DNA of 64,000 nt from Fibrobacter sp. (GTDB taxonomy: Bacteria > Fibrobacterota > Fibrobacteria > Fibrobacterales > Fibrobacteraceae). Position numbers and translations under genes: made by a program. Below are positions 8,216 through 39,690 of the stretch, piece after piece (the first letter of the stretch is position 1; every line of letters starts with the position of its first letter). Below the pieces are notes generated by a model. It did no database searches. It was not told where the DNA came from and saw only the letters and a program-made list of their open reading frames with translations. The stretch is taken from positions 186,001 through 250,000 of the forward strand of contig JAFPWY010000010.1 in the NCBI GenBank assembly GCA_017412605.1, in the 5' to 3' direction.

Positions 8216-8298
<83 letters not shown>

Positions 8299-9225: not shown

Positions 9226-9765
9226 ATGCATATGTTACATTCGAGCGAGATGAAAAAAGGTTTCACAATGGCTGAAATACTCGTGGTGTTGACCATCATG
9301 GGTATTCTTTCGGCTATGGGCATTTCTGCCATGCGCGATGCAATTGTTAATAACCGGGTCAAGGATGCCTCGTTGAACGTCGCCGCCTACCTGGAACGTG
9401 TCGCCAACGAGACGAACCGCATTTCCGACAAGGTTTGCGTAAAGAACGATGGCAAGGAACTCTATGCCGCCAAGGGCGACTGCAACGCAGCCTCGAAAAA
9501 CAATAAAATCAGTTCTTACACGCTCGAAGGCCCTCTCGATTTTGATTTGACGACTAGAGGAAAAGACTGTTCAGACAACTGGCTTGCCAGTGATGACGGA
9601 GAATTCGAGCCCAGGTTCGGCTTAAGCGCAGCTCCGGTGGAAGGCTGTATTGTCATCAAGTATGGCGCTAGCAGTAAATTTGCCCGCGTACTTAAGTTGA
9701 GAACGAAAAACAATATCATTCCGCAGGTCTCTTACGACAGCGCAAAAACCTGGACGGGCCTGTAA
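9226..9765 (+). CDS. Prepilin-like minor pilin, FimU/GspH type
   Basis: A 179-residue type III signal protein. A short leader ends at KKG, and the prepilin peptidase site G/FTMAE is followed by the hydrophobic helix ILVVLTIMGILSAMGISAM, with Glu at +5. The C-terminal domain contains paired cysteines (CVKNDG..GDC and later CS/GC). Length and position, first in an H-V-W-X order, suggest the GspH/FimU role in a pilus or pseudopilus tip. The ATG at 9226 lies 9 nt after AGGAG; ATGs at 9232 and 9250 are alternatives. This gene type occurs only in cassette A of the three cassettes here. Confidence 0.85.
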   Translation: MHMLHSSEMKKGFTMAEILVVLTIMGILSAMGISAMRDAIVNNRVKDASLNVAAYLERVANETNRISDKVCVKNDGKELYAAKGDCNAASKNNKISSYTLEGPLDFDLTTRGKDCSDNWLASDDGEFEPRFGLSAAPVEGCIVIKYGASSKFARVLKLRTKNNIIPQVSYDSAKTWTGL

Positions 9766-9769
9766 TTCT

Positions 9770-10219
9770 ATGAAAAATCTACGGAAGAATATTTTTGGCA
9801 ACCTGTCCGGTTTTGGAATCGTCGAAGTTCTTATTTCAGCTGTCGTGCTCGGCTTTCTGTATCTCGCGCTACTGCACATGCAGGTCGGCAACCGTGAATC
9901 TCTCCTGAGAATTCGTGGGCGCGATGGCGCCGTCGAGGTCGCCCAGAACATTATCGATTCCCTCAAGACCGTCGGGGTCGCCTCCATTGCGTCGTTTTCC
10001 AAGAACGACATCGTCAAGTCCTGGGACCGTGGTCCGGGTGGCAAGTCTAGCCTCACGTACCGTGCCGATGTCACCGTGGGTACCGTCAGCGAATCCGCCT
10101 CGTCCGGTTCCTACTACGAGACCATGTCGCATGTGTATGCAAAGCAGGTGGATGTGAAGGTATCGTGGAAATTCAAGGGCTCCGAACAGTCCGTCAATGT
10201 ATCAAGCGTGGTAAGATGA
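9770..10219 (+). CDS. Prepilin-like minor pilin, PilV/GspI type
   Basis: A 149-residue protein with leader to LSG and prepilin motif G/FGIVEVLISAVVLGFLYLAL, with Glu at +5. It carries the stretch GNRESLLRIRGRDGAVEV, which is identical in the cassette B paralogue at 23650, while the rest has diverged. The C-terminal domain is a small beta domain ending VSWKFKGSEQSVNVSSVVR, also similar in B. It should be processed by a prepilin peptidase and sit near the tip between the H- and W-type subunits. It overlaps the next gene by ATGA, so the two are translationally coupled. Confidence 0.85.
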   Translation: MKNLRKNIFGNLSGFGIVEVLISAVVLGFLYLALLHMQVGNRESLLRIRGRDGAVEVAQNIIDSLKTVGVASIASFSKNDIVKSWDRGPGGKSSLTYRADVTVGTVSESASSGSYYETMSHVYAKQVDVKVSWKFKGSEQSVNVSSVVR

Positions 10220-11568
10220 GAAAATCCGGCTTTACCTTGATGGAACTGATGGTCTATATCGCTATCCTCGGGATAGTGGTCATCGTTGCGGGCCAGGCTT
10301 TCAGCAACAGCACCAAGATGCGCGTGCGGACCGAGAACATGATCAAGGCCAGCGCGTCCGTTGGAGAACTGGAAGCGTTCATTCATGACGATGTTGCCCA
10401 GCTGGGCTCAAAGAGTGCTAAGGAATCCCGGGATTATGGAACCTCGGACAGCTTCTATGTTTCTCCCAAGGTATACATGGACGTGGACAATGGAGACATG
10501 TCTTCGTTCTATCTGGAAAATAGCGTTAGCTCGGGTGACCATAAGGATTCTCTGGCGTTCCGTAGAATGCGCTACGATTCGCAGGGCCATTATCTCTCGG
10601 TGGAACAGGTCTCGTGGTATCTCAAAAAGCAGACTTTGTACCGCAAGTGCACGACTCTGGATTACAATACCAGCAAACTGTCTGAACCGCCTCCGGAGTG
10701 TCCGTCTAACGGCGAGGGCGCTGTCGAAATGTTCAGCAACGTGAAGTCGTTTGACGTTGTTCCTGCGAAACCGGCTGTGCTGGCTTCGGAATACAGCAAT
10801 CTGGCTAACTCTCCGCGACTTCTGCCATCGCCGAACAAGGATGACAGGGTCTTTAGGCTGATCTCCCGTTTTGACAACGGCAACGATGCGACAAAAGGCT
10901 ACAAGGCGTTGAACCGTGATCCCCAGAATGGCGGGCAAAGTGTAACCCTGTTCAATTTTGCCTCGAATTACAACTATACCGACCAGAAAATGGAAACCTC
11001 GTGGAAAAACGTGAACCAGGTGTATGTTGCTTCTGGAACTAGCGATGCAACGGAGAATACCGATTCGTGGAAAACGTGTACCAAGGTTAAACTGGAAGCG
11101 CACGTCAAGTACGAATTGTCCTTCTATATTCCGTATGTCTCAGAAGATAAGAGCCGCTCTTTCTGCCCAGGGATAGACCACATGGCTGTGGGATTCCGCT
11201 ATGCTAAAGATGGATCTGCTGTGGCCGACCTCAACGACTTCTCATTTTATCCACCTATAGACGGTTCCGCGAATGGAACTCGCTCGATGCAGTTCTCCTT
11301 GGATTCGACAGTTAGTGATCTTTGCCTGGCGTTCACGTTTGCAATGTATTCTCCGACGGCGTCAAATGGCCGCATTACCATTACCGACCTGAAATTGAAC
11401 AAGGTGGAAGAGTCCGATTATGAATTTGACGACACCCTCGACTTGACCCAATTTGATGATAAACAAAATATTAGGGCGTTGAAATTTATGATCCGCTTTA
11501 AGGAAGGCGGCGAAGCTGGGATACTGGACTTGGTTGTCGTGACTCCCGGAAATGGCAAGAAAGTTTAA
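10216..11568 (+). CDS. PilW/GspJ-type minor pilin with large beta-sandwich C-domain
   Basis: A 450-residue protein starting at ATG 10216 (ATGA overlap with the preceding gene). Prepilin motif G/FTLMELMVYIAILGIVVIVAG with Glu at +5. The pilin part (to about residue 200) is PilW/GspJ-like. The C-terminal half (about residues 215-450) contains phrases like YELSFYIPYVSED, HMAVGFR, LCLAFTFAMYSP and GRITITDLKLNKVE, reminiscent of CBM4/9-like jelly-roll domains. It is far longer than typical PilW or GspJ (200-350 residues). Homologues lie in cassettes B and C. A carbohydrate-binding role is an inference. Confidence 0.8.
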   Translation: MRKSGFTLMELMVYIAILGIVVIVAGQAFSNSTKMRVRTENMIKASASVGELEAFIHDDVAQLGSKSAKESRDYGTSDSFYVSPKVYMDVDNGDMSSFYLENSVSSGDHKDSLAFRRMRYDSQGHYLSVEQVSWYLKKQTLYRKCTTLDYNTSKLSEPPPECPSNGEGAVEMFSNVKSFDVVPAKPAVLASEYSNLANSPRLLPSPNKDDRVFRLISRFDNGNDATKGYKALNRDPQNGGQSVTLFNFASNYNYTDQKMETSWKNVNQVYVASGTSDATENTDSWKTCTKVKLEAHVKYELSFYIPYVSEDKSRSFCPGIDHMAVGFRYAKDGSAVADLNDFSFYPPIDGSANGTRSMQFSLDSTVSDLCLAFTFAMYSPTASNGRITITDLKLNKVEESDYEFDDTLDLTQFDDKQNIRALKFMIRFKEGGEAGILDLVVVTPGNGKKV

Positions 11569-11578
11569 GGGGACGAAA

Positions 11579-14500
11579 ATGAAAAAAGGTGTATCGCTAG
11601 TAACAGTCCTGCTGTTTATGATGGTTGCAACAATTGCTGCAACGGCAACGTATAAGTTGATTGGCTCGGTGGGTGGCGCCTCTGCCGCTCGTCTGAAGTT
11701 GTCGGAAGCTCGTGAAGCGGCCCAGATGGGCATAAATGCGACTCGTTCTTGGATGACTTTTAAGGGAAATGATGTGGGTGCATTGGTCAGGCAGTATTTC
11801 GAGGGCAAGAAGAAACCGATTCTCCTTAATTCTGTGCTTCCTCGCCTTTCTAACGAGAAGATGAAGGATAGCGTTTGGCTCGTTGGTGCCGATATCGATG
11901 GTTCCAACTACAGGCTTAAGATTCTTTCTGTAGGTACCTTGGCCGACAACACGTCTTACCACGAAGTTGCTGTTTTAAATGTGAACGGACTGTACCAGGT
12001 CCAGATTCCGACGAATGTTCGCTCTGTGCCCTACAACGATGCGTTCCATGGCTCTCTGACCACGGCGGATGTTATCAATGTCGATGCTGCTGTTATCAAG
12101 CGATCTCCTAATGTTTCGAATGCCGGTGGCCAGGCGCTGAATTCCATTACGTCGAGTAAGTACCTTGTTCTTGATGGAAACTTCTATGTGAACGATGCCG
12201 CCAATGTGAGAGACCTGTATGTGTCGGGCGATCTTTCCTTTGGAAACTCTTTGAATGTTAGCGGTAATTTGTATGTAGGCGGAATGGTTTATGCCACAAT
12301 GTCCACAAATCCGCTGGATGTCAGAGGTACAGCCTATTTGAATGGGGGTATGAACCTTAACGAAAAGGCTAGCTATATTGCAAGTAGTGTTCAAGGCTTC
12401 CAAGGTGCGCTAGGCGGACGGTACACGTTCCATAGCAATGTGACTTGTAATGGCGATATAGAACATTTTGCGCATGATTACGGTTCCTTTGTGTTGATGG
12501 AACGAAACCTGGTGATGAACGGAAAAATCAAGTATCATGGAACGACAACGTCTGCAAACGATAATATCCGTGTCTTGCACAACGCTTTCGTTAATGGAAC
12601 TGTTGCTGTTAATGGTGCTGTAAATACGAGCAAGTATGCCAGAAAGACCATGTTTGGAACTGGTCCGGACGATAAATTGCTTATCACGGGAATGAGCATG
12701 TATTCTGATGATGGTGCTCTGTGCCGGGATTCCGTGTTCCACTGCGCCACAAAGGGTGATGATGAAAACCTTGTTGTCGCTTTCAATGGTACCTATACCC
12801 AGGCTATCGAAGACCATGAGCTTGCATCTTGGGGCGCCGATCCGCTTACAAAGTATGGGGCGCTGATTAGCGAAAAGCAGACGGGTGCTTGCAACCTTGC
12901 TAAGGGCCCGCTTATGGTAAATTCCTCGGTTGCTTCTCTTGACATTGTCCATAAATCCGACAGGACGTTGGGCTGTAGTGACGATATTTGGAAAAATACC
13001 GAAGACGCCGTGTCTTTGCTGAACGAATGTTATACCAAAGCCTCCGCCCGTGGAGAACTTTATAATAAGAGCTGGCTTATTGTGGAATTCCCGGGGGCTC
13101 CGTTGTGGAAGTCCTCTCCGGGCCGCCTCCAGGGTAATTTCGTATTCATTATCAATGGTAACACGATAAGTCAGGAATGGGTGATTCCCCAGACTGGAGC
13201 CGATTCCTATGTGATGCTCTATCTCCCGAATGGATGGCCCAATACGGAAGAGGGGAACTCTTTGAGAACGGCGGACGATGCGTCTGACAACATCTATAAC
13301 TATTTCATTTATAGTAAGGGAAATATTGGAAGATTCGATTCTAGGGTCGACGACCCGTTGCGCGGATCTATTTATATGGATGGCTGCGCAAGCCTCAATA
13401 CGTTGAATTCGAACAATACGCTTTCTGTGCAGTTCAACGAGAATTTGGTGAATGAACTCGTCCGTGCAAACTTGATATGCGAAAATAACGGGACCGGATC
13501 CTGCTCCAACTTTGCAGGAGTTTCCTCCTTGTACGCTGTGTCTGGGTTTGATGAACCCAAGGACCCCTTCCATATCGCAACATCTCCGCAGTTGACTGTT
13601 GCCGTGGAATCCCAGTATCGCAATAATGAGCCATCTCCCGCTGTTGGTGACTTTGACCTTATCCAGAAAACGGCTGTTGTGTTGCCCCGCATTATTTATT
13701 TGACCAGGGATGCCGTGGGTACATTGAGCGATTACTATAACGTTGTTGCGCTGAACGGTTCTCGCCAGCGTAGAGAGATAAATAAAATGACATGTCCGTC
13801 GCAGATTCGTACGGCCGCTAAGTTGTCTTCCGATACGGATTTGATCGATGAAGGTGTGTATCTGTGTTCTTATTCGGAAACGGAAACCAACGACGTTATT
13901 CCGGTGTTTGTCGTTGTGCATGGCCTCCAGAATGCCCAGCCCGACATTAAGTTCGACCAGCCGGATAAAGCTATTGCAGCGGGTTCTACTGTCAAGGTTT
14001 ACCTGAGAGCGACGGATGAAAGCGACCGCGTCAAGATTCTCATATCGGCCCCGATAGCTAAGCCTTTTGGCTGGGACTACACTCCGAATGAAAGGCTCCA
14101 GTACGAAGGCGAATCCGATGGCCGCGTACTTTATAGTCTCGAAACGTCCACCACGTTGGGATCGGATATCGAAGTGTTCACTGTGTCGACTGAAGAACAT
14201 GCGGCACTTTCTGATATTACGTTCCAGTTGGAATCGCCTTGCACAAATTGCAATATCGGTCAGCCCGATGTTTCCCGAATCTACATTTCGAACAGGGTGT
14301 ATGTCGAGCGCACTGATTTCGGCTCGTCTTTGTGCAGTCAGGGCGGCAATGCCTACAAGTTCATGCAGGCATATGGCGTGGCATGTAACGAAGTCGTGAC
14401 GTGGCCGTCCTGCGAAGTCTTCCTGGACGACGATGATGTCTGGGTTACGGCGGATGGCTTGGGCTGTTCTGTTGAAGATCCCAATAACAGGTGGCGCTGC

Positions 14501-17500
14501 GCTACGGGCGGTAATACGGTTCGCTTGAAGGAAGCGGCATCGATCGATAACAAGTGTAAGGCTTTCATTCCGGATTCACAGTTGGTCTTGTCCTCGGCAA
14601 ATCGCGAGTATAAGCTGCCTGCAGTTGTGAAGCGCAAGCCGGTTATGCTCAATGTGCGATTCCATGGGGATTCGAGAGAGACCGGTGTCAACATCGAGGT
14701 GAAACGCCCGAATTGGACATCTTCTGCCGATACGGTGTGCTATGAAGATTGCGATTATAGGCTGTTTGCTGGTGACACCGTTTTCTTGCTTCGTACGCTT
14801 GCAGGTTACGGAAAATTCTCTTATTGGGCCTGTAAGGGTGAGGACTGCCCGTATAAGGATAAGCCGATTATCAACTCGGATACCTTGAAAATGACGTTGA
14901 GCGGGTTGTCCGATGATACCGTGGCTATCCACTTCAACGAGAAGGATAGGCATTGCTTCTACGCCGACTTCTCGGAAACCGAAATATGGTGCAATAGCGC
15001 TAACAAGGATGACTGTATCGACAAGTGCAAGAGCGGTACTCATTGCTCGATTGGTGGCGGAAATTACAAGAATGCGGATTGGCTCATGGTCTATTCCAAC
15101 GATGGTAATAGTTTTGTTAAGCCCGCATTGAACAACGGCTATATATCGCCGCCGAATGGCTTTGGCTATTTCAAAACATTGATATTTGGTATTGAATTCC
15201 AGACGGGAGAGCCGACACTTGTCCTGAATACGGCCTTGGCGGGCTATAACGGCAAGTACACGTCGATGATCAGGATTCCCTCGATTCTGTCCAATACGCT
15301 TGACAATATTCGCAACAGGCCGATTGATGATGGTCTAGTCTTTAGATCTAATGCTTCCGGTACGGAATACTACCTACTGAGTATTATTACCCATGCTGCG
15401 GCGGCTTATGCAAGGCTTTGCTATGTGACTGGCCGCGATAGCGATAACAAACGGTGCCAGGAATCTGCATTCCGTCGTGGATTGTTCGACAACCAGCTTG
15501 CGGCCCTGACTATGTTGTCCTATGCCTCTATCAACTTGGATATCGAGGGCCCGGATATCGTGGCGACACTCAGCTATAACACGGGTGGAGCGGACTGGGG
15601 CTCTGCAGTAGCTACGTTCGACTTGACAGAAAAGTTTAGCGATGTTATCCATGCGGACGATGCTCACCAGTATGTCGGCTTCAAGCTGGGCGTGCCCCAC
15701 CTTCTCACGAGCTTTGAACTTTACGACATTGGCTGGACGAGTACGACTGGTGATTATGCGGACTCCTGCTGGGCTTCCCCGGCTGTGACTTGCTCCTTCA
15801 GGTCGAATTACGAAGGCGGCATGGTTCCCAAGGATTCCATGGTTACGCCTTGGGTGGCCCTGTCTTCTTGGTTCAAGGGCAAGAACTGCAATATCTCGTA
15901 CTTCTATAACGGCTGTGACTTGAGGGATGACCGCTTTGTAAATGGCTGGAACTTCCTTGGCTTCTCCCTGGCCTACGGCGATAACGATATGGCGTGTGGT
16001 GTTACTGGTGGAAAAGGCTTCTATCGATATTCGGCCAAGAAGTTGGATTTGTATAAGCGAGGCAAGTTGAAGGATAATCGGTACAACTTCGAAAAGGATG
16101 GCTACCACGGTTATGCGTACACGGGTGCGAATGGCAGGTCTGGCGTTATCAATGATGCGTCCATCCTGGTTTACTGTACCGGTGATGGTGCCAATGGCCA
16201 TACCTACGAGGCGAGCTGTGGTGACTTTATTGTCGGCGAGTTCGAGCATTGTACGGAAAGCTACATGGAATTGCTGGATCGTCCGGCTAGTTGCTTCTAC
16301 AAGGATTCCTGCTATGTCCCGCTGGATATCGATAGCACGATTAACGTCCGCGAATCCGAAATGCACTTTACAATCGATTTGAACGGTGGTTCTGTGCAGG
16401 CTTATGTGATGGATGTCGATGGCTTTATGAGCAAGGTGGGCGCTGTTGCCCATGCCTCTGGAGACTATACGCTGAATATGGAGAAGATTTCCGATGAGGG
16501 CGGTTTCAATCCGCAGCACATCACGGGATTGGTGTTCAAGACGCCTGACCAGGCAAATTTCAATATCACCCATGTGGACAGCTATTGTAAATATGCCTTT
16601 GGTGTTCGTTCCTGTAAGGTTGACCCCTATAATGTGAATACCCGCCAGTGGAGGGTCACTGCGACGGTCATCCATCCGGAAAAGGCTGCAAAGTGCAAGG
16701 TGATTGGTCATGACGCGGCCGCTGGCATTGTTGATGAAATGCCTTGCGCGACGGAATTTATTGACGAAATAACCCAGGACAATATTTACGGTAATGATGT
16801 GGAAAAATCCTATTGGTTCTCCGTCATTGCTTACGATGAGAATGGGTACGAGATGGATGCCTGTGAGACTACGCCCAGGGTGATTCCTGCAATGAGCATG
16901 ACTTGTGCTGTGTCGCAGGACAAAATTGAGCAAACCTACGGCATACCTTCGTTCCGCTTCAATATCGATGGTTGCCCTGTTGATGGCTGCCCCTATGAAA
17001 TTACGTACCCGGATAATTCGAAATCCGGTTCGCTTACAGGCGAAACGGGTGCTGGATTGTGCCCGGAAAATGGGTGCAATAGCTACAATACCTACGAAGA
17101 CAAGTTTGATGAGGGTAGGACATATCAATACAAGATAAAGGCCTATGACCAGACCTGTGTCGCGGAATTTACAGTTCTTCCTGAACCGCCTGCTATGAAG
17201 TGCGAAGCTAGCTACGATGGAGAAAAGTTCATTGCGGATGTGTCCTATATAAGCGAGTCGGGAACGCCGACTTCTTGGACGGGTACGCTGGATTTGAGCG
17301 TGTCGGGTACGGCTGCGTTGACCGACCAGTTGGGTAACATTGTCTTCTCGGAAAAGATGAGAGGCGACAATGCTCATTTCGAGTATACCTTCCCAGAAAA
17401 CCTGAAGGCTTGTCCGGCGGGCGAATGCAACTACTATGCATGGCTTGTTCTGCCGGGTCACAACGATCAGCCCTGTCATGCGTCTTGGACGGCTCGCGCC

Positions 17501-19133: not shown

Positions 19134-20117
19134 TTATGCCTGCTCGCGACGCTTCTTCTGGAGCGCGTCGATTCGGGCTTGGGCTTCCGCGATTTGATCT
19201 TCGGGAATACCCATTTCGCGCAGTGCTGTCGCCGTATCGGCTTTCGCCTTCGCTTGTGCGTCAGCTAGCTGCTTCTGCGCTTTCGCCTGTTCCTCGTTGC
19301 GCGCTTCCGCGATTTTCTGGCGGAAAACGTCTCCGGCACTCACGAAACCGTATTTCTGTCCGATGCTTACGAATGCCATGTCGAGCTCCTTCAGCACGTC
19401 CTTGGTGACGTACTCCTTCAAATATATACTAATCTTCGCCAGCAGGCAAGCCGCCTCGTCGTGTGGCATGCGTTGCAGCGCCTTCTTGAACAGCGGCAGC
19501 ACCCTGAGCAGGTTCTCCTTGTCGAATGCGTACTTCATCGCTATAATGCCCATTCCTGTGGCTGTGTCCTCGCAGGCGAGGCAGTCGCTGTCGGGTATAT
19601 CGACCATGTTTACGAACGAGCAGGCGAACGGGAGGATCCTCCCGCGGAAACACGATGGATATCTGTCCTCGATGCTCCCGAGCGGGTTCCAGTTCTCGCG
19701 CCCGTTGTAGAATATAATGGCCATCGTGGGGAGCCCGCTGAAGGCGCGGTGTTCACTGTATATCTTCATCACGGAATTTACGTATCGCGCAATCTGGTCA
19801 AGCGTGCCGGAATCGCGCCCGGACTTGTGCTCTGCGAGAATGCCCACGAGCATGGGCGCTCCCGAGGCAACTTCTACGCGGAAGGCAAGGTCTGCTTCTC
19901 CCGTTTCTTCGACTTCGGAATACGAGTCGGGGATGCGTACGAGCGTGTCGAGGTTCACCTCCGAGATGAACTCGCCGATGTCCTTATTCACCTTGCCGGA
20001 AAGTTCTAGCAAATGCCTGAGCCGCCCAACGTCGGAAAAAAGCCATCTGAAAAAAGCGTCGTGTGGTTTTGGTTCGGATGTTTCGTCTGTCTTTGTCATA
20101 GGATCTGTATTTCCCAT
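19134..20117 (-). CDS. Rpn-family recombination-promoting nuclease / PD-(D/E)XK putative transposase
   Basis: A 327-residue protein of the Rpn (PF04754-like) family, which consists of PD-(D/E)XK-type DNases that promote RecA-independent recombination in E. coli. Visible features are HDAFFRWLFSD at the N-terminus, the nuclease core GEADLAFRVEV..LVGILAEHKSGRD, and the AIIFYNGRENW strand. The C-terminus is Ala/Lys/Gln-rich and helical with LREMGIPEDQIAEAQARI, a tail module also seen at 41100-41170. The GGAGA ribosome-binding site precedes the ATG at 20117; an in-frame ATG at 20099 is possible. It is inserted between pilin cassettes A and B, on the opposite strand to both. Confidence 0.85.
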   Translation of the reverse strand: MGNTDPMTKTDETSEPKPHDAFFRWLFSDVGRLRHLLELSGKVNKDIGEFISEVNLDTLVRIPDSYSEVEETGEADLAFRVEVASGAPMLVGILAEHKSGRDSGTLDQIARYVNSVMKIYSEHRAFSGLPTMAIIFYNGRENWNPLGSIEDRYPSCFRGRILPFACSFVNMVDIPDSDCLACEDTATGMGIIAMKYAFDKENLLRVLPLFKKALQRMPHDEAACLLAKISIYLKEYVTKDVLKELDMAFVSIGQKYGFVSAGDVFRQKIAEARNEEQAKAQKQLADAQAKAKADTATALREMGIPEDQIAEAQARIDALQKKRREQA

Positions 20118-31400: not shown

Positions 31401-32136
31401 GAGTTTGAACGGTGATCCGGCGTGTGCTGTGTCGCATACGGTGGACAATACTAACCCGTTGACCGTGAAGTGCCCAGAAAACCCGATTACTGGGCAGAAT
31501 CCGAGCAGTTCGATCTCGGTTAATGTTTCCGTGAGTGGATGTACAGGACCTTTCGACTGGAATATCCCCGGTGCGACGTCAGGGGGCGTTGGCACCTCAA
31601 CGAACGGTTCTGTTAGCTTCTACGATTTAAATGGTACGGGACAGAAGACATACTCATTCAAGGTCAGCAAATGTAATGGTGGCCCAGGTAAGCCGAATCT
31701 GTCTGGCGAATGCACTTTCAACGTGGTATTTAACTCGTCGTCCAGCAGTTCTTCTAGCAGCAGCTCGAGCAGCAGTTCTTCTAGCAGCAGTTCCAGCAGT
31801 TTTTCTAGCAGCAGTTCTAGCAGCAGCTCTTCTAGCAGTAGTTCTAGTAGCTCGAGTAGCGTTGCGGCCATTCCTGTAACGTTCTCTTACCAGGGCCCTG
31901 CTACGGACTTTGTGGCTGGTAAGACATATCAGGTCAGTTGTCCTAGAGGTGGGTTGATTTGTACCGCACCAGCGGGGGGTACGAAGATGTACATCAATAA
32001 CACCTTGGTGTATACAACTCAAGATTGGCAAGGAGATCAATATCCTGGTGGCTTCCAACAGGTAGAATATTGCAGTAACCTCAATGGTGCAACTGTAACC
32101 GTGTCAGGGACAATGAAGTGTAAAAACGACTGGTAA
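25462..32136 (+). CDS. Giant PilX/GspK-like pilin-adhesin (cassette B)
   Basis: A 2,224-residue paralogue of the 11579 protein, starting after a perfect AGGAGG site. N-terminus G/VSLFTVLLFMMMATIAATATYKW, with Thr at +5 in place of Glu. A beta-helix-like N-region (FIVTGDARLSGDSIVVGG; IGGNVFLQG) follows, then a Ser/Asn/Gly-rich spacer near residue 675, an InlB-like domain before HCFYTEF (about 1171), and the lectin-like region with CSFDAKYMAGE (about 1441) and FYYNGCDM. Three C-terminal Cys-Ig-like repeats (NCPSTGC, SCEVND, KCPENP) follow. Unlike its paralogues it then has a 42-residue poly-Ser linker (2092-2133) and a unique 91-residue C-terminal domain with several Cys and Trp residues. Probably surface-exposed and adhesive. 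Confidence 0.8.
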   Translation: MFKSRKGVSLFTVLLFMMMATIAATATYKWLFSEGFSSKDRMLMNEARAASLAGVDAARSWMSYHSNDVGSLLKQYFTMKHQKRGISLDTVLKPMAKPGQLFSVALVGVDAPPASATYTLKIISTGYTRDSSAVYTETAVLKVSGLYRVRRPVAEIQIHNDYHYAYFGGSTSFAGKHNGSAMLINGNWGTQNGSNPGRLANDFIVTGDARLSGDSIVVGGTACIGRDILTDNGLWAGNLFVGRNSIGNNDFNASVVQDAFFAGNIKVGPVQKAGFAIGGNVFLQGRLTPRLSSFAHTIGGNLCLDSNASLYFQSESANYDFMVTHNVWMPVSNPGKGLVTSNNGTTSLYHRQLGTTVGDTAFIKDAKNCYNNVVPGMTDCSDIDIHGMKYKKYFQLTNGNSSQGYSGFTTKAAVPAVLPDTVPFACGAGVKKYCDAIWQTKEKAGKSCDNAPYYVPDILRTAHIQFEPYASETKGTKASESGVNDCKNITHISKTNITKMNSCYTQMMLNPTYRKKYLYNDYLVVRLESNENESSEADNAQYQLNGKFLFIYEQALQGNNPHFPQTADNSIVFVYLKGGTGANTKINCNGQKGVKYNYFIFSKHDIGGLLGQCTWSGSLYGSATYCAKIHDINGSVEMEYNQKVVDDLVRSAIICDAKLDSCDGSMHGDNGGGHSSSSNNGNGSSDNDNEEVELRFLNGPYDEEFVATGTQLYVTVESEYRSKDKIDPDVHKMEPSYLVMPRILYLAQGFPGKLKDYVTVVPRAGAKAVKVDDSDIECSGRASGLQSGKIENKLAEMSPNVYSCSFKENNLESKFYVVLLDGDVHEMPMVYFEGETNEFFEVGKSGSGEVKIVLAPSNYQGKFSVTIGMSEKPSDWEVIKSDGSAVNWKTAEDGSQYIEVEKQAKKEGETFAIFKVSAGESAAPGTLRFTLHNPQNCILAGGSAVKTFNRRGSTGISRCTINQYCERYPDNCNSNSRLRIAADSAEDCNTAAGTWVRADGIGCDASNQNQTWQCDAGVGEANEIRLVKGNSTNNNLCAVYIPEQHNSVSAPKADTTYELCASIKRLHYMLHIDMHGAHHNSEVVASIYEPEDTTFSHPYAVKRCSNSSGCDFIVYKGQTVLMKPSLKGDDKFSRWYSEGYYFSKRQASPYQLQFVVSEDRSYSAYFNEKDEHCFYTEFEESPIWCPDDETIDCVDYCNGSAPCAIEDVRYKKANWVVINSKGGADVKPEIVSQKYIAKPADPDDIAMMMSTVNAGPEGTFSAQLWTEIGHAGPLGVGNLSLNSGVVVRSDSAGSEYISVNFYGAGGPANASATTTYARVCYAKKLKLLAGDAGSNNCKAIALTSTNLLSFTWNSMTPVNFEVRVEGDSLHILGSYANAFGVYQATGDVDLRDVIHQEDNTLNDDKHRFVGLKLGDANFGVYNAAWYSKTYDAECFATPTIFCSFDAKYMAGEVPQNQSVSPVVGYSSWFMNEGAECLNKTKFYYNGCDMPSDRYANPMAADMLNGMYCNGRIDGDGNVENYFTNSSFEVKDGNDFYFKLEGPHGFEHNTRSGIVRNASVMVNCSKVNGHSYQANCGEFYVGQTHSCSQDEYISGPSPMHGIMDYEIPLTGVYANGMNFRDAKVLFYLAMNPGIKVSARFVDASGRTSKSVSLTSVGLNEVEGKDYAKQFGFDQEHVTKIILRGSGTYSVDSIVTQCAASLKVRCGENDASYVNEGYWRVHASIDPYQLAEKCKVEPIGLPAMSPYFGPCNSQGIFLLNDLDFEDRLNMGNEVQKVSFKVSVYDNDAADAFSSPKSECIASTQEYKPITLSCNLSGDAEVMQGAGVPAVVVDAQNCPSTGCVYSITLSNGTEYVHTSNIMGTMTWQPTLNTTTKLPPNSYRYTVNIYNSDKSKVYKTCTTGDFDVVTASSATATSCEVNDAGHFRAFVTTGNEGTVSATLTRSDLLGNPLGQQTLPANSSDYVDFDLHLGTYPSGTYQFNLSLNGDPACAVSHTVDNTNPLTVKCPENPITGQNPSSSISVNVSVSGCTGPFDWNIPGATSGGVGTSTNGSVSFYDLNGTGQKTYSFKVSKCNGGPGKPNLSGECTFNVVFNSSSSSSSSSSSSSSSSSSSSSSFSSSSSSSSSSSSSSSSSSSVAAIPVTFSYQGPATDFVAGKTYQVSCPRGGLICTAPAGGTKMYINNTLVYTTQDWQGDQYPGGFQQVEYCSNLNGATVTVSGTMKCKNDW
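31735..31860 (+). repeat. Poly-serine linker codon tract
   Basis: Twenty-two Ser codons, one Phe codon, then nineteen Ser codons inside the cassette B giant gene. All six Ser codons are mixed rather than one codon repeated, so the tract is maintained at protein level rather than being a simple slippage repeat. It links the Ig-like stalk to a unique C-terminal domain. Confidence 0.9.
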
Positions 32137-32168: not shown

Positions 32169-32200
32169 TAGGTGTGGCGCGCGTCACACCTATTTTGTTA
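32169..32200 (+). terminator. Terminator between cassettes B and C
   Basis: An 8-bp stem TAGGTGTG/CACACCTA with an 8-nt GC-rich loop, followed by TTTTGTTATTTT. It lies 32 bp after the cassette B giant gene. No strong promoter is visible between it and the cassette C start at 32256, so read-through is possible. Confidence 0.75.
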
Positions 32201-32255
32201 TTTTAGTACCTCTAGGCTCTATCGATGGGGTTGTTTGCGGGGCCAAACGGGGAAT

Positions 32256-33611
32256 ATGAGCGGGAATTGTAAAAAATACGGCTTCACTTTGATGGAGCTA
32301 ATGGTATACATCGCCATCCTTGGCGTCATTGTGCTTATTGCTGGAAATGCCTTTAGTGATAGTACCCGGTTCCGCATCCGCACCCAGAACATGCTCAAGG
32401 CCAACGAGGTAGCCACCGCTGCTGCGTCCATGTTCGTGGAAGATATTTCGCAGACGGGTGCCAAGAGCTACAAGACCGCGGGCGATATCAACACCCCCGA
32501 CAAATTTGAGACCTCTTCGCTGGTGTACATGGACCCGGACGGTTCCGTCCCGGATTCCTCGTCTTTTTCGATTGTACGGCGCAATAATGGCGATTCGCTC
32601 ACGGTAAGGCGCGTCCGCTTCGATTCCAACGGCGAATACGAGGCTGTCGAAGAGGTTTCGTGGTTCAAACGCCGCAATTCCATTTACCGTAGTTGCAAGA
32701 CTCTCGATATCAAGACGGGCGTTACCGCTCCCGACGAATGCCCTACCGAAAACATGCCCGAGGTCGAAATCGTTTCTGGTGTGGATTCCTTTATCGTTGT
32801 CCCGGCACGACCGGTTGTCGTTGGCGATGCGGGCGTTTCTGCCGCAGTCAAGTCCATTGTGCTGCCCGAGGTCAACTCCGGGGCCTCCGAATACCCCTTC
32901 AAGCTGCTTCCGCGCTTTACGGGGGCCACGTCCACGGGGCCGCAATACTTCGCTTTGGCCTCCAATCCCACGGATGGGGGCGTCAGCCAGGAACTCAGCG
33001 GGTTCAAGACGAATTATATTGCCGGTTCGCATTCGGAGAATGCCTCCGGCAAAAAGGTCGGACAGGTCTTTGTCGGGCGTGCGAATACCGGCCTTACGGC
33101 GGTAAATGGTGACGACTGGAAGACGTTCTGCTCCAAGGTCACGCTCGATTCGACGGCTGAATACGAAATTTCCTTCAAAATTCCCTATTCCAAGGACAAT
33201 AGCCGCCTGTTCTGCGCGGGCCGCGACCACGCCTCGGTCGGTTTCAGGACCGCGACGGGCGACAAGATTGCCGGCCTTGAGGACTTCCTTTTCTACCCGC
33301 CCGTATCAAAACTGGAACCTGCACTGCGCGCGTTCCGTTTCAGGCCCCCGAATTCCGTGAAGAACGCCTGCCTTGCGTTCTCGTTCGCAAGTTACGCTCC
33401 TGATGGGGGCGGTCGCATAACCATTAACGACCTTTTCTTGAAAAAGATCGAAAGCTCCAATTACAATTTTGACGACAAGACATACGATCCGGCCACTACC
33501 GACAAGCAGAACGTGAAGGCTTTCCAGCTGCGCATTGTCGTGACCGTGGGCGGTGAAACGGGTGAAATTTTACAGGTTGCTCCGATGCCCAGCAACGGGC
33601 CGGAAGACTAG
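32256..33611 (+). CDS. PilW/GspJ-type minor pilin with large C-domain (cassette C)
   Basis: A 451-residue protein, third paralogue of the 10216 and 24114 genes. Prepilin motif G/FTLMELMVYIAILGVIVLIAGNAF with Glu at +5. The C-terminal half retains YEISFKIPYSKDNSR, ASVGFRTATGD, NACLAFSFASYAPDGG and RITINDLFLKKIE. The start at ATG 32256 follows an ACGGGGA site; an upstream in-frame ATG would give an implausible leader. Its codon use is GC-richer than cassettes A and B. In this cassette no PilV-type gene precedes it, so it may share the V subunit of another cassette. Confidence 0.8.
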   Translation: MSGNCKKYGFTLMELMVYIAILGVIVLIAGNAFSDSTRFRIRTQNMLKANEVATAAASMFVEDISQTGAKSYKTAGDINTPDKFETSSLVYMDPDGSVPDSSSFSIVRRNNGDSLTVRRVRFDSNGEYEAVEEVSWFKRRNSIYRSCKTLDIKTGVTAPDECPTENMPEVEIVSGVDSFIVVPARPVVVGDAGVSAAVKSIVLPEVNSGASEYPFKLLPRFTGATSTGPQYFALASNPTDGGVSQELSGFKTNYIAGSHSENASGKKVGQVFVGRANTGLTAVNGDDWKTFCSKVTLDSTAEYEISFKIPYSKDNSRLFCAGRDHASVGFRTATGDKIAGLEDFLFYPPVSKLEPALRAFRFRPPNSVKNACLAFSFASYAPDGGGRITINDLFLKKIESSNYNFDDKTYDPATTDKQNVKAFQLRIVVTVGGETGEILQVAPMPSNGPED

Positions 33612-33621
33612 GGGGACTCGA

Positions 33622-36600
33622 ATGCGAAACAACTGCCTGGCAAAAAGAGGTGTCTCGCTTATAACGGTGCTCATTTTCATGATGATTGCCACTATTGCGA
33701 CCACGGCCACCTACAAGTGGCTCAGTTCGGCGGGCTTTACCAGTGCCGACCGCATGGCCATGTCCGAGGCCAAGGAAGCGTCCCATGCTGGGCTCGAGAG
33801 TGTCCGTTCGTGGATGACGTACCATGCAAACGATGTGGGCGCCATTCTCCGCCAGTATTATGATGGTGGCAAAAAGCCGGTGGCCCTCACCAATGTCGTC
33901 CGCAGCATGAATTCCAGCAAGCAGGTGTTCAAGGTCTGGCTGACCGGGGTAGAAACGTCGGGCTCGGCCTACAAGTTCACCATCGTTTCCAACGGCGTAT
34001 CCCATGGCGATGCCAAGTACAGCGAGACATCGGTCTTGAAGGTGCGTGGCCTGTACAAGGTGAGGGAACCCGAGGTTGTTATGGAAAGCCCGGTGGATTT
34101 CAAGCATTCGTACTTTGGCGGGTCAATGGAAGGCTCCGGCGAAAACAAGAATACATCGATGGTTATCAACGGCAACTGGAAAGGCAACCCGACAGGAGTC
34201 TCTGAAGACTTCATTGTGACCGGAAAAGCGGAACTTTCGGGCAATGACGTCAATTTGGGGCGTCATGCCTGCATTGGTGGCGACTTCAAACCTCAAAACG
34301 AGGGCGCTACTGCTGGGGACATCTATGTGAAGGGCGCTACCACCAATCTCAGTGCTAGTATTACCGGCAATGCCGTTTTCGATAAGAGTGTCGGGTCGAC
34401 TACGGCGGGGCATGGCATAGAAGTTGCCGGGGACTTGACCTTAAGAGGTACGTTCACGACCGAAAAAACCAAGCGAACCAGAATTCGTGGTAACTTTTGC
34501 GTGGAAGCGGGCGGCCAACTGAATATCGGCGATCTTTATCAAGACTTTACCGCAGAAAGAAGCGTCAATGTGAAGACGAACAATCTTTTCCTGAATTCGC
34601 CAAATTCAGATGCTGTCGGGCATACGAATTTTGGTGGGAGTGGCTATTCTATATACATGCCGAACTTTGGAACCTGCAATTCCAACAATAACCCGGTGCA
34701 AGGCTGTAGAAGCGGATGGAATTATCAGGGTTACGGCGGCTTTTTCAAGACGAGCGCAATCCCAGTTTCTACCCCGAACAACACGATGTATTGCGACACC
34801 AGTATCATCGCATATTGCGACAGCATCTTGGGAAAGCCGACGAAAGGCTGCGATAATACCAAATACAAGATCAAAGACATGATTACCACCGCGTATGACT
34901 CTTTCAAACAGCTGGTGGACAAGGTCCCTTGTGCCAAAATCACCGGCAGCAACACAAACAACTTTAATATGGCGACCTTGAATCAGTGCTATAGGAATAT
35001 CTCTAATACGCCCAACTTGATGTACCATGGTTACCTTGTGGTAGGAGTACATGGCTCTGGAGACCAGTCTATATTCAAGAATCCCAGCGGAAGACTTGAA
35101 GGAAACTTCATCTTCGTTTCTGAAAACAAGATTTCCATGTTGAATCTTCCCCCGACAACGGATACGTCGAAGGTGTTTTTCTACATGGCGAAAGGCGCCG
35201 GGATGGTCAATACTCCGCCTTCCAAGGTTCATGAAAGATACAATTACTTTGTCTATTCAAAAGAAAATATTGATGAACTCCAGAACAGAAACATGGCTGA
35301 TACCCTCTGGAACGGCTCGTTCTATCTGACTGCGGACAACTGTGCCGGAATCAAACACTTCAATACGGCGCACATGGGAATTCAATATAATGAACCCTTG
35401 GTTCAGAGTTTGGTCGACAATGCCATCATTTGCGGTATTAACGAAGAAGGCTCCTGCGGTTCCCTGGTCAACGACCACGAAGACGACATCAACCACGATG
35501 GCGAAGAACTGAATGTGGAAGCCGGTTATGACTCTTACTACATAGCGACGGCTCCGCAGCTATCCATATCGCTCGAATCGCAACGCCGGAACAAGGAAAT
35601 TCTGTACGACAACCTGTCTTCCAGTGAATATACCACGGTTAAGCCGAGCATTGTCATCTTGCCGCGCATTATCTACATGAGTGACCTGCCCACGGGCAAG
35701 CTGTGGCAATACTTCAAGGTGATTAATCTGAACGGTGCGAAGGAAACCTACGGGAGTGGAAGAACGAAATGTACTCCGAATATCGAGACGGAAGACGTGA
35801 TTACTGACGGCGTTCCGTTGGAACATCCGGTGTACAAGTGCGAATATACAGCGAAGAAGTCGTCCTACGGCACCATACCCTTCTGGTTGGTGGTCGATGC
35901 CCAGGCGGCTCAGAGATCTGCTGTGAGCTTCGTCGGTACGGAATCGCGAATCTTTGGCGGTGGCTCGGTAACCGTAAAGATGAATGCCGATGGAAGCCAA
36001 CACGAACCGATTACGGTGAATGTGCGCATGACCGAAATCCCCGACGGCTGGCAGGTGCACACGTCCGGCGACTATGTCACCGCTGGCGAAGTCATGGACG
36101 ACGGCTCCCGCATGTATACGGTGATATTGCCGCCGGGCATGGAGACTCCGGTATTTGTGGTGTCCTCCGAGGCTGGGCTCGACAACAACCAGATTAACTT
36201 TACGATTACCTCGGTGGGCGAGAATGGACGAATGGGCTCGCCTGTGAACCATTCTGTCTGGCTTGATGGTGCGGCCACGGTCGTGCGCGACGATATTCCC
36301 AAGACCGGGTTCTGCGATGCGAACAAGCATAAGACGATTAACGGAGTCAGCTGCAGCGAGATCGTTACCAGGCCCGAGTGTACAGGGAACCTTGTCGTAG
36401 CCTCTGTCGGCGATTGGATCCGTCCCAGCTGCCCCGACATCACGACGCAGGAATCCAACAAGCAGTGGGGCTGCGGCCTCTCCGATGCCGAGGATGTCGA
36501 ACTCCAAAGGACGAGGAACGCCTCTCCATATTGTGACGTGTTCATTCCGGATTCCTCCATCGATAACCTGCAAGATGGCCACACCTACACGCTCTACGCG

Positions 36601-39600
36601 TCTTACAAGGCCAAGGAATTCACCCTCAAGGTGTTCCTGAACGGGGCCTCTAAATCCAAGGTGGAAGTACGCTCTTCAGACCAGATTATCAATGCGAACA
36701 CGCCCTTGAATGCCATTACCTCGAGCATGTGCAATGCGGGGGATACCTGTCGCGTCAAGGTGTTCGCGGGTCGCCATATTCAACTCCGTCATCAGGATGG
36801 TCCTGGTGAAGAATTCAAGACTTGGAACTTCTTGCGCAGCGATGGAACCGCGGATTCCGTGTCGTCTTCCGATAAGATGGCGGTATCCTTGCTCCACGAT
36901 ACGCTTGTCGTCGCGGAATACGCCGATATCGAGAACCACTGCTTCTACACGGACTTCAAGGACGTGAGGATATGGTGCAACGGCACAAACGATAACTGCG
37001 TTGACACTTGCCAGGTATCTAACAAGAATTCGTCGTGCCATACCGACGGCGACGGCCAGTACCCGACTTCGGACTGGCTGCTGCCCAGGACCAACAATGG
37101 ACAGAAATACAGTAAACCCAAGATATCATCGGGTAAATTCATCTATTATTCGGCCGGTAAGAACGCCAATAGCGGCAATTCGACCATCTCTTACCTGCTG
37201 AACCGTACCCAGGCGGGTGGCCATGGAACGCTCACGTCGCGATTCAAGGCCTGCTCTCGCGAGATGAAGGGGAACAGCTATACTCCGTTGAACAGTGGCT
37301 TTATACTGCGCTCTACCGACAATGCCTCGCGTTACTCTATCGTGCAGGTATACGGCAGGGCGAGCCAGGTGACTAGCGTCGGCAATTACGTCATGGAGGT
37401 GCGCGTCTGCGAGGGGGACGGCAGCGGCATCAAGAACGAGAACCAGGGTGCCTGCAAGAAGGCCTCGTTCCCCGGAATCACCCTTACCCCGGCCGAATTC
37501 GGCGGCATTGTCTTCAATACCGATATCGAGGTGTTCGGCGACTCCGCGAAGGTCAAGCTCAGCTATAAGAGGGATGGCTCCTGGGTCCGTTCCTCGGTGA
37601 ATATCCCGCTCCTTGTCGGTGCGACCCTTGACGAGTACGTGGGCCTCAGCATGGCCGATGACTGCTTCAAGGTGATGAACCTCGGCTGGTCTTCCGATGA
37701 CTGGGATCCCGAGCACTGTTTCGACATCCCGAATGTCACCTGTTCCTTTGCTGCAAACTACCTGGGCGGAATCCTCCCCCTGAACGAGGACGTGAAGCCC
37801 TGGGTGGGTACCTCCAGCTACTTCAACGACCCGGCCAACGCGGACAAGCTCCGTCCCGGCTGTTCCATGACTTACCACTACAACGGCTGCGATCTGGCCT
37901 CTGGCTATGCCAAGCACTCCTGCGAGACCTGGTTGGACGGCTCCACGCATTGCGGCAGCTGCAGCGCGGATAGCGACGGCCCGTATTTTGTGAGCGGTGT
38001 CTATGCAGACAGGCTGGAAAGGAGCAAGGGCGACAAGTACAACTTCACCTATGCTGGGCTGCACGGAACGTCCAAGTCTTACGACTTCAATGGTACAATC
38101 ATCAACGGCGCCGTGCGCGACGCAAGCGTGACTATCGACTGCAGCGATGAAGCCCAGGGCGGTAACGGCCATACGTACGAAACCACCTGCGGCCGATTCG
38201 TGGTCGGCCACATCAACGAATGCTCGCAGGGCACGTCGTTCGTTATTGACGATTGCGATAACCAGTCGTCGTGCGTGGCGAGTGTTTCGGGCGGTGTCGC
38301 GAACCTCAGGTCTTCTAGCATCATGGGCGAAATCAGCGGCCTGCCCGACACCGACGGTTCCGGGAATATTCCCGTTGTTTCGATGGTGATGATGGATGCG
38401 AACGGTATCCGGTCGCAGGAATTCCTCATCAGCGGCAACGGCTCGTTCTCGCGCAGCGTGGACCTGATGTCCGACATGCAGGAATTTGACCCCGAAAGAG
38501 TCGTTTCCGTCGAGTTCACGGGCTCGAACGACTTCACCGTGACAAGCCTCGTGAGCGATTGCCCCAACAGCGTGGGCGTCCATGGCTGCGAGGCTATGCT
38601 GGACGGCGACCGCTTTGTAATCTCTTCGAACCTCATGAATGCGGACGAGGCGCTTTGCAAGGTGAAGGGCGTGGACAACTCCTACGAGACCGAAGAGAAG
38701 GATTGCCCGCCGGAAGGCAAGTTCTACCTGCCTGCGGTGGATTTGCAGAAGAACGTCAACATCAGCGGCGGCGACCGTACATTCACCTTCACGGTTTCCG
38801 TGAAGCCCAAGGGTGGCGGCGACGAGATGACCTGTACGACACTTCCTGTCGATGTGCTTTCGAACGAACTGACTTGCAGCCTGAGCTCTACAGTGCCCGT
38901 TAATCCGGGCGACAACCTGCCCGCGCTCAATTACCAGATTACGAACTGCCCGCAGTCCGGTTGCGTTGTTGAGGCGAGAATCGGCAGCGAGGCTCCTGTA
39001 AGGCTCACGTACCGCGGCAACGGCCAGGTGAATAGCTGGTCTCCCACCATCAACACCACCCCGGGCAACTACCGCTACACGCTCAGCTATGCGGGCCTTA
39101 CTTGCACCGCCGACATCACCGTCGTTACCGGTGCGAACGGCTCTACGGCCGAAAACTGCGCCATCGACGAGGTGAGCAAGCGGTTCACGGCCGACTTGAA
39201 CCTGGCCGTGGGCAACACGAACTCGATCAAGCTCTGGTACATGGACAAACTGGGCAACATCATCGACCGCTCCAAGAACGTGAGCCCGTCGACCACCCGG
39301 TTCGACGAGCCGCTCCCTACGATGACTGAGGCCGGCGAATACATCGTGGCCCTAAGCATCAACGGCGAAGAGGTCTGCTCCGTGCCCTATACATTTGCTG
39401 GGGAAGAACCCGAGCCGGAAGCTGATTGCTATATCGAGAATGGGCGCTTCAAGAGCCGGAACAAGAATACCACCGGCCAGACGATGTATAGCGTCTCGCT
39501 GAACTACAGCACCGACGGAACGCCCTATGGCAACACGGTGAGCAGCGGCTCTTGGCCTGCGGATGGGTACGTGGACATGGATGCATACCTGCCCACGGCA

Positions 39601-39690
39601 CCGGGAACGTACACCTACAATTTGTGGGGGAGCGGGCTCCTGTGCTCCGTTACATACGAAGTAAAGGACGAATCCGAAGAGAACCCCTAA
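33622..39690 (+). CDS. Giant PilX/GspK-like pilin-adhesin (cassette C)
   Basis: A 2,022-residue paralogue with N-terminus MRNNCLAKRG/VSLITVLIFMMIATIATTATYKW, Thr at +5. It has the same order of parts: a beta-helix-like N-region (FIVTGKAELSGNDVNLG), a conserved region ending near a His/Asp-rich spacer (NDHEDDINHDGEE), an InlB-like domain (FNGASKSK.. to DTLVVAEY), HCFYTDF near 1107, the lectin-like region with CSFAANYLGG and YHYNGCDL, and a second Cys-rich sandwich (SCVASVSGG). Three C-terminal Cys-Ig-like repeats (NCPQSGC, NCAIDE, DCYIENG) end in EESEENP-like acidic residues. There is no poly-Ser linker. Sequence and GC content set it apart from A and B, so it may be older or recombined. Confidence 0.8.
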   Translation: MRNNCLAKRGVSLITVLIFMMIATIATTATYKWLSSAGFTSADRMAMSEAKEASHAGLESVRSWMTYHANDVGAILRQYYDGGKKPVALTNVVRSMNSSKQVFKVWLTGVETSGSAYKFTIVSNGVSHGDAKYSETSVLKVRGLYKVREPEVVMESPVDFKHSYFGGSMEGSGENKNTSMVINGNWKGNPTGVSEDFIVTGKAELSGNDVNLGRHACIGGDFKPQNEGATAGDIYVKGATTNLSASITGNAVFDKSVGSTTAGHGIEVAGDLTLRGTFTTEKTKRTRIRGNFCVEAGGQLNIGDLYQDFTAERSVNVKTNNLFLNSPNSDAVGHTNFGGSGYSIYMPNFGTCNSNNNPVQGCRSGWNYQGYGGFFKTSAIPVSTPNNTMYCDTSIIAYCDSILGKPTKGCDNTKYKIKDMITTAYDSFKQLVDKVPCAKITGSNTNNFNMATLNQCYRNISNTPNLMYHGYLVVGVHGSGDQSIFKNPSGRLEGNFIFVSENKISMLNLPPTTDTSKVFFYMAKGAGMVNTPPSKVHERYNYFVYSKENIDELQNRNMADTLWNGSFYLTADNCAGIKHFNTAHMGIQYNEPLVQSLVDNAIICGINEEGSCGSLVNDHEDDINHDGEELNVEAGYDSYYIATAPQLSISLESQRRNKEILYDNLSSSEYTTVKPSIVILPRIIYMSDLPTGKLWQYFKVINLNGAKETYGSGRTKCTPNIETEDVITDGVPLEHPVYKCEYTAKKSSYGTIPFWLVVDAQAAQRSAVSFVGTESRIFGGGSVTVKMNADGSQHEPITVNVRMTEIPDGWQVHTSGDYVTAGEVMDDGSRMYTVILPPGMETPVFVVSSEAGLDNNQINFTITSVGENGRMGSPVNHSVWLDGAATVVRDDIPKTGFCDANKHKTINGVSCSEIVTRPECTGNLVVASVGDWIRPSCPDITTQESNKQWGCGLSDAEDVELQRTRNASPYCDVFIPDSSIDNLQDGHTYTLYASYKAKEFTLKVFLNGASKSKVEVRSSDQIINANTPLNAITSSMCNAGDTCRVKVFAGRHIQLRHQDGPGEEFKTWNFLRSDGTADSVSSSDKMAVSLLHDTLVVAEYADIENHCFYTDFKDVRIWCNGTNDNCVDTCQVSNKNSSCHTDGDGQYPTSDWLLPRTNNGQKYSKPKISSGKFIYYSAGKNANSGNSTISYLLNRTQAGGHGTLTSRFKACSREMKGNSYTPLNSGFILRSTDNASRYSIVQVYGRASQVTSVGNYVMEVRVCEGDGSGIKNENQGACKKASFPGITLTPAEFGGIVFNTDIEVFGDSAKVKLSYKRDGSWVRSSVNIPLLVGATLDEYVGLSMADDCFKVMNLGWSSDDWDPEHCFDIPNVTCSFAANYLGGILPLNEDVKPWVGTSSYFNDPANADKLRPGCSMTYHYNGCDLASGYAKHSCETWLDGSTHCGSCSADSDGPYFVSGVYADRLERSKGDKYNFTYAGLHGTSKSYDFNGTIINGAVRDASVTIDCSDEAQGGNGHTYETTCGRFVVGHINECSQGTSFVIDDCDNQSSCVASVSGGVANLRSSSIMGEISGLPDTDGSGNIPVVSMVMMDANGIRSQEFLISGNGSFSRSVDLMSDMQEFDPERVVSVEFTGSNDFTVTSLVSDCPNSVGVHGCEAMLDGDRFVISSNLMNADEALCKVKGVDNSYETEEKDCPPEGKFYLPAVDLQKNVNISGGDRTFTFTVSVKPKGGGDEMTCTTLPVDVLSNELTCSLSSTVPVNPGDNLPALNYQITNCPQSGCVVEARIGSEAPVRLTYRGNGQVNSWSPTINTTPGNYRYTLSYAGLTCTADITVVTGANGSTAENCAIDEVSKRFTADLNLAVGNTNSIKLWYMDKLGNIIDRSKNVSPSTTRFDEPLPTMTEAGEYIVALSINGEEVCSVPYTFAGEEPEPEADCYIENGRFKSRNKNTTGQTMYSVSLNYSTDGTPYGNTVSSGSWPADGYVDMDAYLPTAPGTYTYNLWGSGLLCSVTYEVKDESEENP

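Follow-up and report, generated by a model that had tools for sequence, protein, structure and literature searches.

It has long been asked by what means Fibrobacter, a leading non-cellulosomal degrader of fibre in herbivore guts, holds on to cellulose, and the locus described here bears on that question. The window, by which we mean the whole 64,000-nucleotide stretch of DNA that was analysed, spans positions 186,001-250,000 of contig JAFPWY010000010.1 (contig C10) in the 3.53 Mb genome of Fibrobacter sp. GCA_017412605.1. It carries three tandem paralogous cassettes of pilin-like genes, each of which ends in a gene for a giant protein, and an earlier note on this DNA had read these giants as tip adhesins fused to a PilX-like subunit. 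We propose that the giants are oversized modular tip pilins that present adhesins for plant polysaccharides, and we place the probability of this mechanism as a whole at roughly two in three, with some slack as to the ligand.

Cassette A has the order H-V-W-giant, cassette B V-W-giant, and cassette C W-giant, and all nine genes, which lie on the forward strand, are uninterrupted single open reading frames. In cassette A, the GspH/FimU-like minor pilin H (9226-9765), which is present in this cassette only, is followed by the GspI/PilV-like V_A (9770-10219), the GspJ/PilW-like W_A (450 amino acids; 10216-11568) and giant A (11579-19036; 2485 amino acids, 273 kDa, 79 Cys). Cassette B consists of V_B (23650-24117), W_B (24114-25448) and giant B (25462-32136; 2224 amino acids, 241 kDa, 61 Cys), and cassette C of W_C (32256-33611) and giant C (33622-39690; 2022 amino acids, 219 kDa, 57 Cys). 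The frame of giant A opens at 11552, and its best start is the ATG at 11579, which is preceded by AAGGGGA. Overlaps of the ATGA type had been described for the cassettes in general; they were found only at the V/W junctions of cassettes A and B, whereas W and the giant are separated by 10-13 nucleotides, with a Shine-Dalgarno-like sequence within the gap. An RNA-element search of the region returned a single tRNA and nothing else, and the number of promoter-like sites 5' of H was not above chance expectation.

The cassettes are related to one another far beyond chance. By BLASTP, the three giants share 26-28% pairwise identity across 1574-2237 amino acids (E 1e-116 to 0), the three W proteins 34-43% identity (E 1e-71 to 1e-115), and V_A and V_B 53% identity (E 3e-48). 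A scan of public genomes yielded 39 named loci, almost all of them from Fibrobacter, and many had been sampled from the rumen or from yak, sheep, horse and deer. W lies directly upstream of the giant in 43/43 giants from other genomes, indicating that the gene order is not a matter of local chance; 26 of these giants belong to H-V-W cassettes, 3 to V-W cassettes and 11 to cassettes with W only, and 3 are at contig edges. With single reading frames, paralogy and an order kept across 43 giants, the three paralogous cassettes are real. The giant of L038 lies on a 9.8 kb contig of a Bacteroidales-labelled metagenome-assembled genome, and is probably misbinned Fibrobacter DNA.

The N_methyl model (PF07963) has nine sites in the whole genome, and seven of these are within the window, in H (24.8 bits), V_B (21.8 bits), the three W proteins (29 bits for W_C) and two extra pilins at 41273-42601. 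H also matched the GspH model (E 2.3e-7, under the model's cut-off), and V_A matched the TIGR02523 PilV model (E 1e-3). Glu is present at position +5 of H, V and W. The E. coli K-12 gsp operon was then used as a yardstick for profile-profile comparison by hhalign. The alignment of H with GspH covered 64 columns, that of V with GspI 71 (E 4e-5), that of W with GspJ 155 (Prob 96, E 4e-9) and that of the giant N-terminus with GspK 74 (E 0.0034, weak taken alone); for the mismatched subunit pairs that were tried, the alignments were far shorter or none was obtained. Taken along the operon, H, V, W and the giant correspond to GspH, GspI, GspJ and GspK, the GspJ match being strong and the rest mainly N-terminal. 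At about 450 amino acids, W is twice the length of GspJ, and its extra segment (about 230-410 of W_A) resembles an inserted beta-sandwich. This insert was first suspected by eye, and CBM_4_9 was weakly matched by 2/42 W proteins (best E 0.024).

The giants begin with a short basic leader and a G at position -1 (46/46 giants), followed by VSLxTVLxFMxxATIAxTAT. The +5 residue is T in 31, A in 10 and V in 5, and Glu in 0/46; the N-terminus of E. coli GspK likewise lacks Glu5. PF07963 gave no match in the giants, which were missed by this model because Glu5 is absent. The prepilin motifs that had been called matching throughout the cassettes thus extend to the giants in their basic leader and G at -1 but not in Glu5. 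PilX_N (PF14341), by comparison, matches 36/42 giant N-termini (best E 2.9e-7) and was found in 10/19 full-length giants of relatives. The giant is also the last gene of an H-V(I)-W(J)-giant(K/X) set. The view that a giant adhesin is carried by the subunit in the PilX/GspK position is supported by PilX_N, the GspH-K order, the co-occurrence with W, a pilin-like structural model and the pilus-machine genes found alongside giants (below), and we consider the identity of the giants as pilins to be nearly certain. The giants would be cleaved by prepilin peptidase.

Searches of the whole window giants against Pfam and NCBIfam called no domain, the 19 relatives' giants gave only PilX_N and scattered immunoglobulin (Ig)-like matches against the domain libraries, and sequence searches of the PDB with the giants gave only weak beta-helix and Ig matches. 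The assignment of folds therefore rests on structure prediction. Giant C was modelled with AlphaFold2 in two halves, from two alignments that combined sequences of the window and of the loci (A3, 46 rows; A4, 44 rows), and the half models had a mean predicted local distance difference test (pLDDT) score of 80.3 and 80.8. Residues 1-157 (33622-34092) form a predicted pilin module, with helices at 13-35, 41-67 and 69-81 followed by strands at 102-148; the helical part is long and kinked, and the sheet is antiparallel. The pLDDT of this module is mostly 75-90 from residue 41 and 42-59 earlier, so that the membrane helix is of low confidence. For residues 1-157, no pilin was among the matches listed by the fold search, a list that was filled by other domains and does not imply absence.

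The next and largest pilin-proximal module, residues 158-609 (34093-35448), is a predicted beta-helix whose closest likeness is to the tapirins. The model aligned with the tapirin C-terminal domain 4wa0 (Z 21.4, root-mean-square deviation 3.9, 303/358 residues aligned) and with a second tapirin, 6n2b (Z 19.6). Further along the chain, residues 764-884 (35911-36273) are modelled as a separate Calx-beta-like domain (3fso, Z 11.5, root-mean-square deviation 2.4, 103 aligned), which accounts for the other high-scoring matches of that search, and residues 1104-1363 (36931-37710) as a ConA-like lectin domain, with CBM66 4b1m (Z 12.1 with 152 residues aligned) and lectins of the legume and L-type kinds (Z 10-11.4) as its matches. 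The C-terminal 490 or so residues (1535-2022; 38224-39687) are predicted to form a string of Ig/Fn3-like domains. The same domains were aligned along giants A, B and C. Mapped from giant C, the pilin module, tapirin/ComZ-like beta-helix and ConA-lectin-like domain lie at 11579-12025, 12026-13495 and 14945-15763 in giant A, and at 25462-25938, 25939-27438 and 28969-29757 in giant B. As modelled, the giants are modular pilins, in which a pilin module is joined to a non-pilin module of putative function. The tapirin and lectin folds lend structural support to the putative binding of plant fibre; likeness of fold is not proof of function. Giant B has a long poly-Ser linker ahead of a small C-terminal domain, shortly before 32136, that is not present in giants A and C.

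The window's genome encodes the type IV pilus set PilM/N/O/Q, PilB, PilC, PilT and PilD. PilM, PilN, PilO and the secretin are in one cluster (L078); T2SSE with MshEN (PilB), PilT-like ATPases, PilC and a single prepilin peptidase were also found. Downstream of cassette C are divergent type IV pilin genes at 41273-41845 (reverse strand) and 42059-42601 (forward strand), with N_methyl scores of 33 and 38 bits, and they are candidate major pilins. The giants, T2SSE, secretin, prepilin peptidase and PilY1 (PF05567) were searched across the same 168 Fibrobacterota genomes. Giants were present in 96/111 genomes of the family Fibrobacteraceae (76/80 of the same genus and 20/31 others), often several per genome. 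Outside Fibrobacteraceae, a single match reached E 1.6e-9 and four others had E values from 4e-4 to 9e-4. Wherever a genome of at least 90% completeness had a confident giant match, the secretin, the T2SSE ATPase and the prepilin peptidase were all present; the exceptions that miss some machine gene (G151, G083, G043 and G046) have a completeness of 70-87%. In one genus, four genomes (G160-G163) lack both the secretin and the peptidase, and they also lack giants. Giants in genomes devoid of pilus and type II secretion genes, which would have spoken against the earlier note, were thus not seen among the confidently matched genomes of at least 90% completeness.

The giants are not uniformly conserved along their length. 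Averaged over all pairs of giants, identity is 0.56 for the pilin module, compared to 0.28 in the beta-helix, 0.24 in the Calx-like domain, 0.31 in the lectin-like domain and 0.24 in the stalk. The beta-helix domain ranges from 450 to 742 amino acids, the stalk from 259 to 1405 amino acids, and the full length across the giants compared from 1998 to 3103 amino acids. A conserved anchor that displays variable binding parts would be expected to give this identity pattern. A tree built from the first 700 residues places giants A, B and C in different clades, all of them supported and all containing orthologues from other species, and the distances of W and of the giant are correlated (Mantel r 0.68 and 0.77, with 0/2000 permutations as high). 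The two halves of some giants have different nearest neighbours. The N half of the L046 giant is 53% identical to that of L035, whereas its C half is 28% identical to L035 and 47% to L045; such discordance between the two halves was found in the giants of L046, L035, L045, L014, L019 and L021. These discordant halves hint at exchange of modules, with differences in rate as an alternative cause. In L009, cassette A, cassette B and the start of cassette C follow one another in tandem without intervening genes, at the same chromosomal site, which indicates that the genes between A and B in the window and in L010 were apparently inserted. The suggestion that the cassettes are interchangeable is therefore borne out in part: the displayed domains vary and some halves are discordant, but each of A, B and C also forms a stable lineage of orthologues.

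In the mechanism that we propose, each cassette would encode the whole or part of a GspH-I-J-K-type initiation and tip complex for a type IV filament, with the giant modular pilin as its final subunit, the counterpart of PilX/GspK. The single prepilin peptidase would cleave the subunits, after which the complex of W and the giant (with V and H) would initiate a pilus that PilB and PilC extend through the PilQ secretin, giant leading, and that PilT retracts. The conserved pilin module would anchor the giant, while the tapirin/ComZ-like beta-helix, the Calx-beta-like domain and the ConA-lectin-like domain would be shown at the tip on an Ig-like stalk and would bind plant cell-wall polysaccharides. 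Three cassettes could then provide tips of differing binding properties on one common machine. We regard the location of the giants at the tip of a type IV pilus as very probable and, given the rest, plant polysaccharide as their probable ligand.

Several observations weigh against this proposal. The cassettes do not adjoin pilMNOQ or pilB, and Cys-rich chains of 219-273 kDa would have to pass through a secretin. The comparison of N-termini with PilX/GspK models that had been suggested earlier gave PilX_N matches for most giants but left the window's own three below the PilX_N cut-off (E 4.5 for giant C). The tapirin relation is a predicted fold at 14% identity, and tapirin was absent from the PDB sequence-profile matches at E <= 1 and at E <= 10. 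PF05567 matched 0/168 genomes, and no positive-control genome was matched either, so that this result is not proof of the absence of PilY1; the claim that no pilY1 is needed is thereby only suggestive. In addition, a second filament cluster is present on contig C3 (L079, 7062-11584) with a GspD-like secretin and two N_methyl pilins. This cluster also contains a PilX-like prepilin of about 300 amino acids, which looks like the usual size for this kind of subunit, with beta-helix-like repeats by eye; this prepilin argues that the second system has its own tip and does not require the giants, which would use the type IV pilus. A PilP/GspC-like protein (by eye) and V- and W-like pilins were also observed in L079.

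The second cluster bears directly on the possibility that the cassettes are tips of a type II-secretion-like pseudopilus, whose giants would not be adhesins at a pilus tip but would help to collect cellulases or drive them out of the cell. The H-V-W-giant order mirrors gspH-I-J-K, the genome does carry this second cluster, in which a secretin is accompanied by separate minor pilins, and type II secretion genes are reported to be raised on cellulose in strain S85 (PMC4668043). The cluster already owns its PilX-like prepilin of about 300 amino acids, however, and has no need of giants, and the PilM/N/O/Q/B/C/T set is present. A periplasmic location would moreover give little sense to a lectin-like protein of 219-273 kDa, and type II secretion pseudopili remain periplasmic. 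We consider this explanation quite unlikely.

The remaining alternatives keep the giants at a pilus tip and change what they bind. As the tip of a DNA-uptake (competence) pilus, the giants would resemble ComZ of Thermus, which is encoded in a pilin operon and binds DNA (PMC6561018), and the beta-helix at residues 159-606 of giant C does resemble ComZ (6qvi), with 233 residues aligned at Z 11.2. Tapirin is matched far more strongly, at Z 21.4 over 303 residues; ComZ, with 554 amino acids, is without the further 1,400 residues that bear the lectin-like fold, and multiple paralogues with fast-evolving displayed domains are unexpected for a general DNA receptor, making this role highly improbable. 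A ligand other than plant fibre, such as mucin, other cells, or ciliate or fungal glycans, would be compatible with ConA-like and Ig-like folds, which bind many ligands, with loci that derive from yak, sheep, horse and deer gut samples, and with displayed domains whose fast divergence fits variable glycans. It too is unlikely, since the largest pilin-proximal module is closest in fold to a dedicated cellulose adhesin and the giant family is confined to Fibrobacteraceae, a cellulose-degrading group (PMC4704652).

With plant-polysaccharide adhesins on type IV pili as the preferred reading, a broader one can be put forward tentatively, and as a joint proposal it is somewhat less probable than not. 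Tapirins, ComZ and the Fibrobacter giants may be branches of one family of beta-helix tip pilins, in which tip pilins would have turned into cellulose adhesins in Caldicellulosiruptor as well as in the Fibrobacter of the gut, where they would have been enlarged to giant multi-domain forms, exchanged as cassettes on one pilus machine. If this is true, the grip of Fibrobacter on fibre would be made by retractable pili.

The genes around the cassettes were also inspected. PD-(D/E)XK nuclease 'transposase' genes (PF04754 YhgA-like; PF12784) at 19134-20117 (reverse strand) and 39854-40768 (forward strand) flank cassettes B and C. Such genes also lie between A and B in L010 and similar ones follow A in L011 and L013, with none between A, B and C in L009; these genes may mark or promote recombination at the cassette locus. 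Also between cassettes A and B, and conserved in L010, are genes for a Ser-rich lipoprotein (20221-21183, forward strand) and for a lipoprotein-like protein with a PPDK_N (PEP/pyruvate-binding) domain (21193-23457, forward strand); a PPDK-like ATP-grasp domain is odd in an exported protein. Upstream of H, a probable small secreted protein gene (8303-8914, forward strand) has a similar open reading frame in L009 and L013. The longer opposite-strand frame at 8195-8941 overlaps a tRNA (8216-8298, reverse strand) and is probably spurious. At the other side of the locus, 42708-50316 contains duplicates recognised by eye, namely sulfatase-like membrane proteins (at 42708 and 48796) and related multi-pass membrane proteins (at 44508 and 46615).

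A link between pilins and adhesion has been drawn for strain S85, whose pilus gene set was judged incomplete (PMC3079729). A later survey listed PilB/C/D/M/N/O/Q/T and no tip proteins (PMC4704652), and pilins of F. succinogenes S85 are modestly raised on cellulose (PMC6851124; PMC4668043). Our searches of the available literature found no paper that describes the giants or links Fibrobacter to tapirins. Being widespread in the family, missed by pilin-motif searches and of predicted tapirin-like fold, the giants are strong candidates for the missing Fibrobacter tip adhesin, and adhesion becomes testable with single domains and single operons.

Among known systems, the Verru_Chthon cassettes are repeated sets of prepilin-like proteins and in this respect are like those of the window. 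The window genes are nevertheless far under the curated cut-offs (16.4 vs 70 bits for TIGR02596; 13.1 vs 256.5 bits for TIGR02599), with weak matches by H and W only (E 0.007 and 0.04), and a Verru_Chthon-type cassette was rejected. Cassette A has the same four-gene order and subunit homology as FimU-PilV-PilW-PilX(+PilY1) and GspH-I-J-K, whereas the Fibrobacter cassettes may shorten to V-W-giant or W-giant. Compared to fimU-pilVWX-pilY1, the adhesin would be covalently within the PilX/GspK-like giant, PilY1 itself being unmatched in a search that had no positive control.

Tapirins of Caldicellulosiruptor are beta-helix-shaped adhesins by which degraders of plant biomass bind cellulose (PMC7142884), and their attachment to S-layer proteins and pili has been described (PMC10267330). 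They share the predicted beta-helix fold of giant residues 158-609, whereas the giants add a PilX-type pilin module and about 1,400 residues and have no sequence-level match to them. ComZ of T. thermophilus is, like the giants, a large GspK-like minor pilin with a beta-solenoid, encoded beside other minor pilins; its beta-solenoid is inserted in the pilin fold, a tip location has been argued for it, and it was missed by a pilin-motif finder (PMC6561018). The giants are about 4-6 times longer than this DNA-binding protein of about 554 amino acids and have lectin-like and Ig-like modules. The S. sanguinis pilins PilB and PilC resemble the giants in joining an N-terminal pilin module to an adhesin module, which these modular pilins present on the pilus, probably at its tip, a placement that has been argued for PilB (PMC8179133). 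The earlier description of the giants as highly unusual is justified for their size, but modular minor pilins are known as a class (PMC8179133). The survey of that class required the IPR012902 motif, and its most extreme multi-domain case has 860 residues (PMC8179133); the giants, which lack this motif and have 1998-3103 amino acids, push the size of modular pilins well beyond that extreme.

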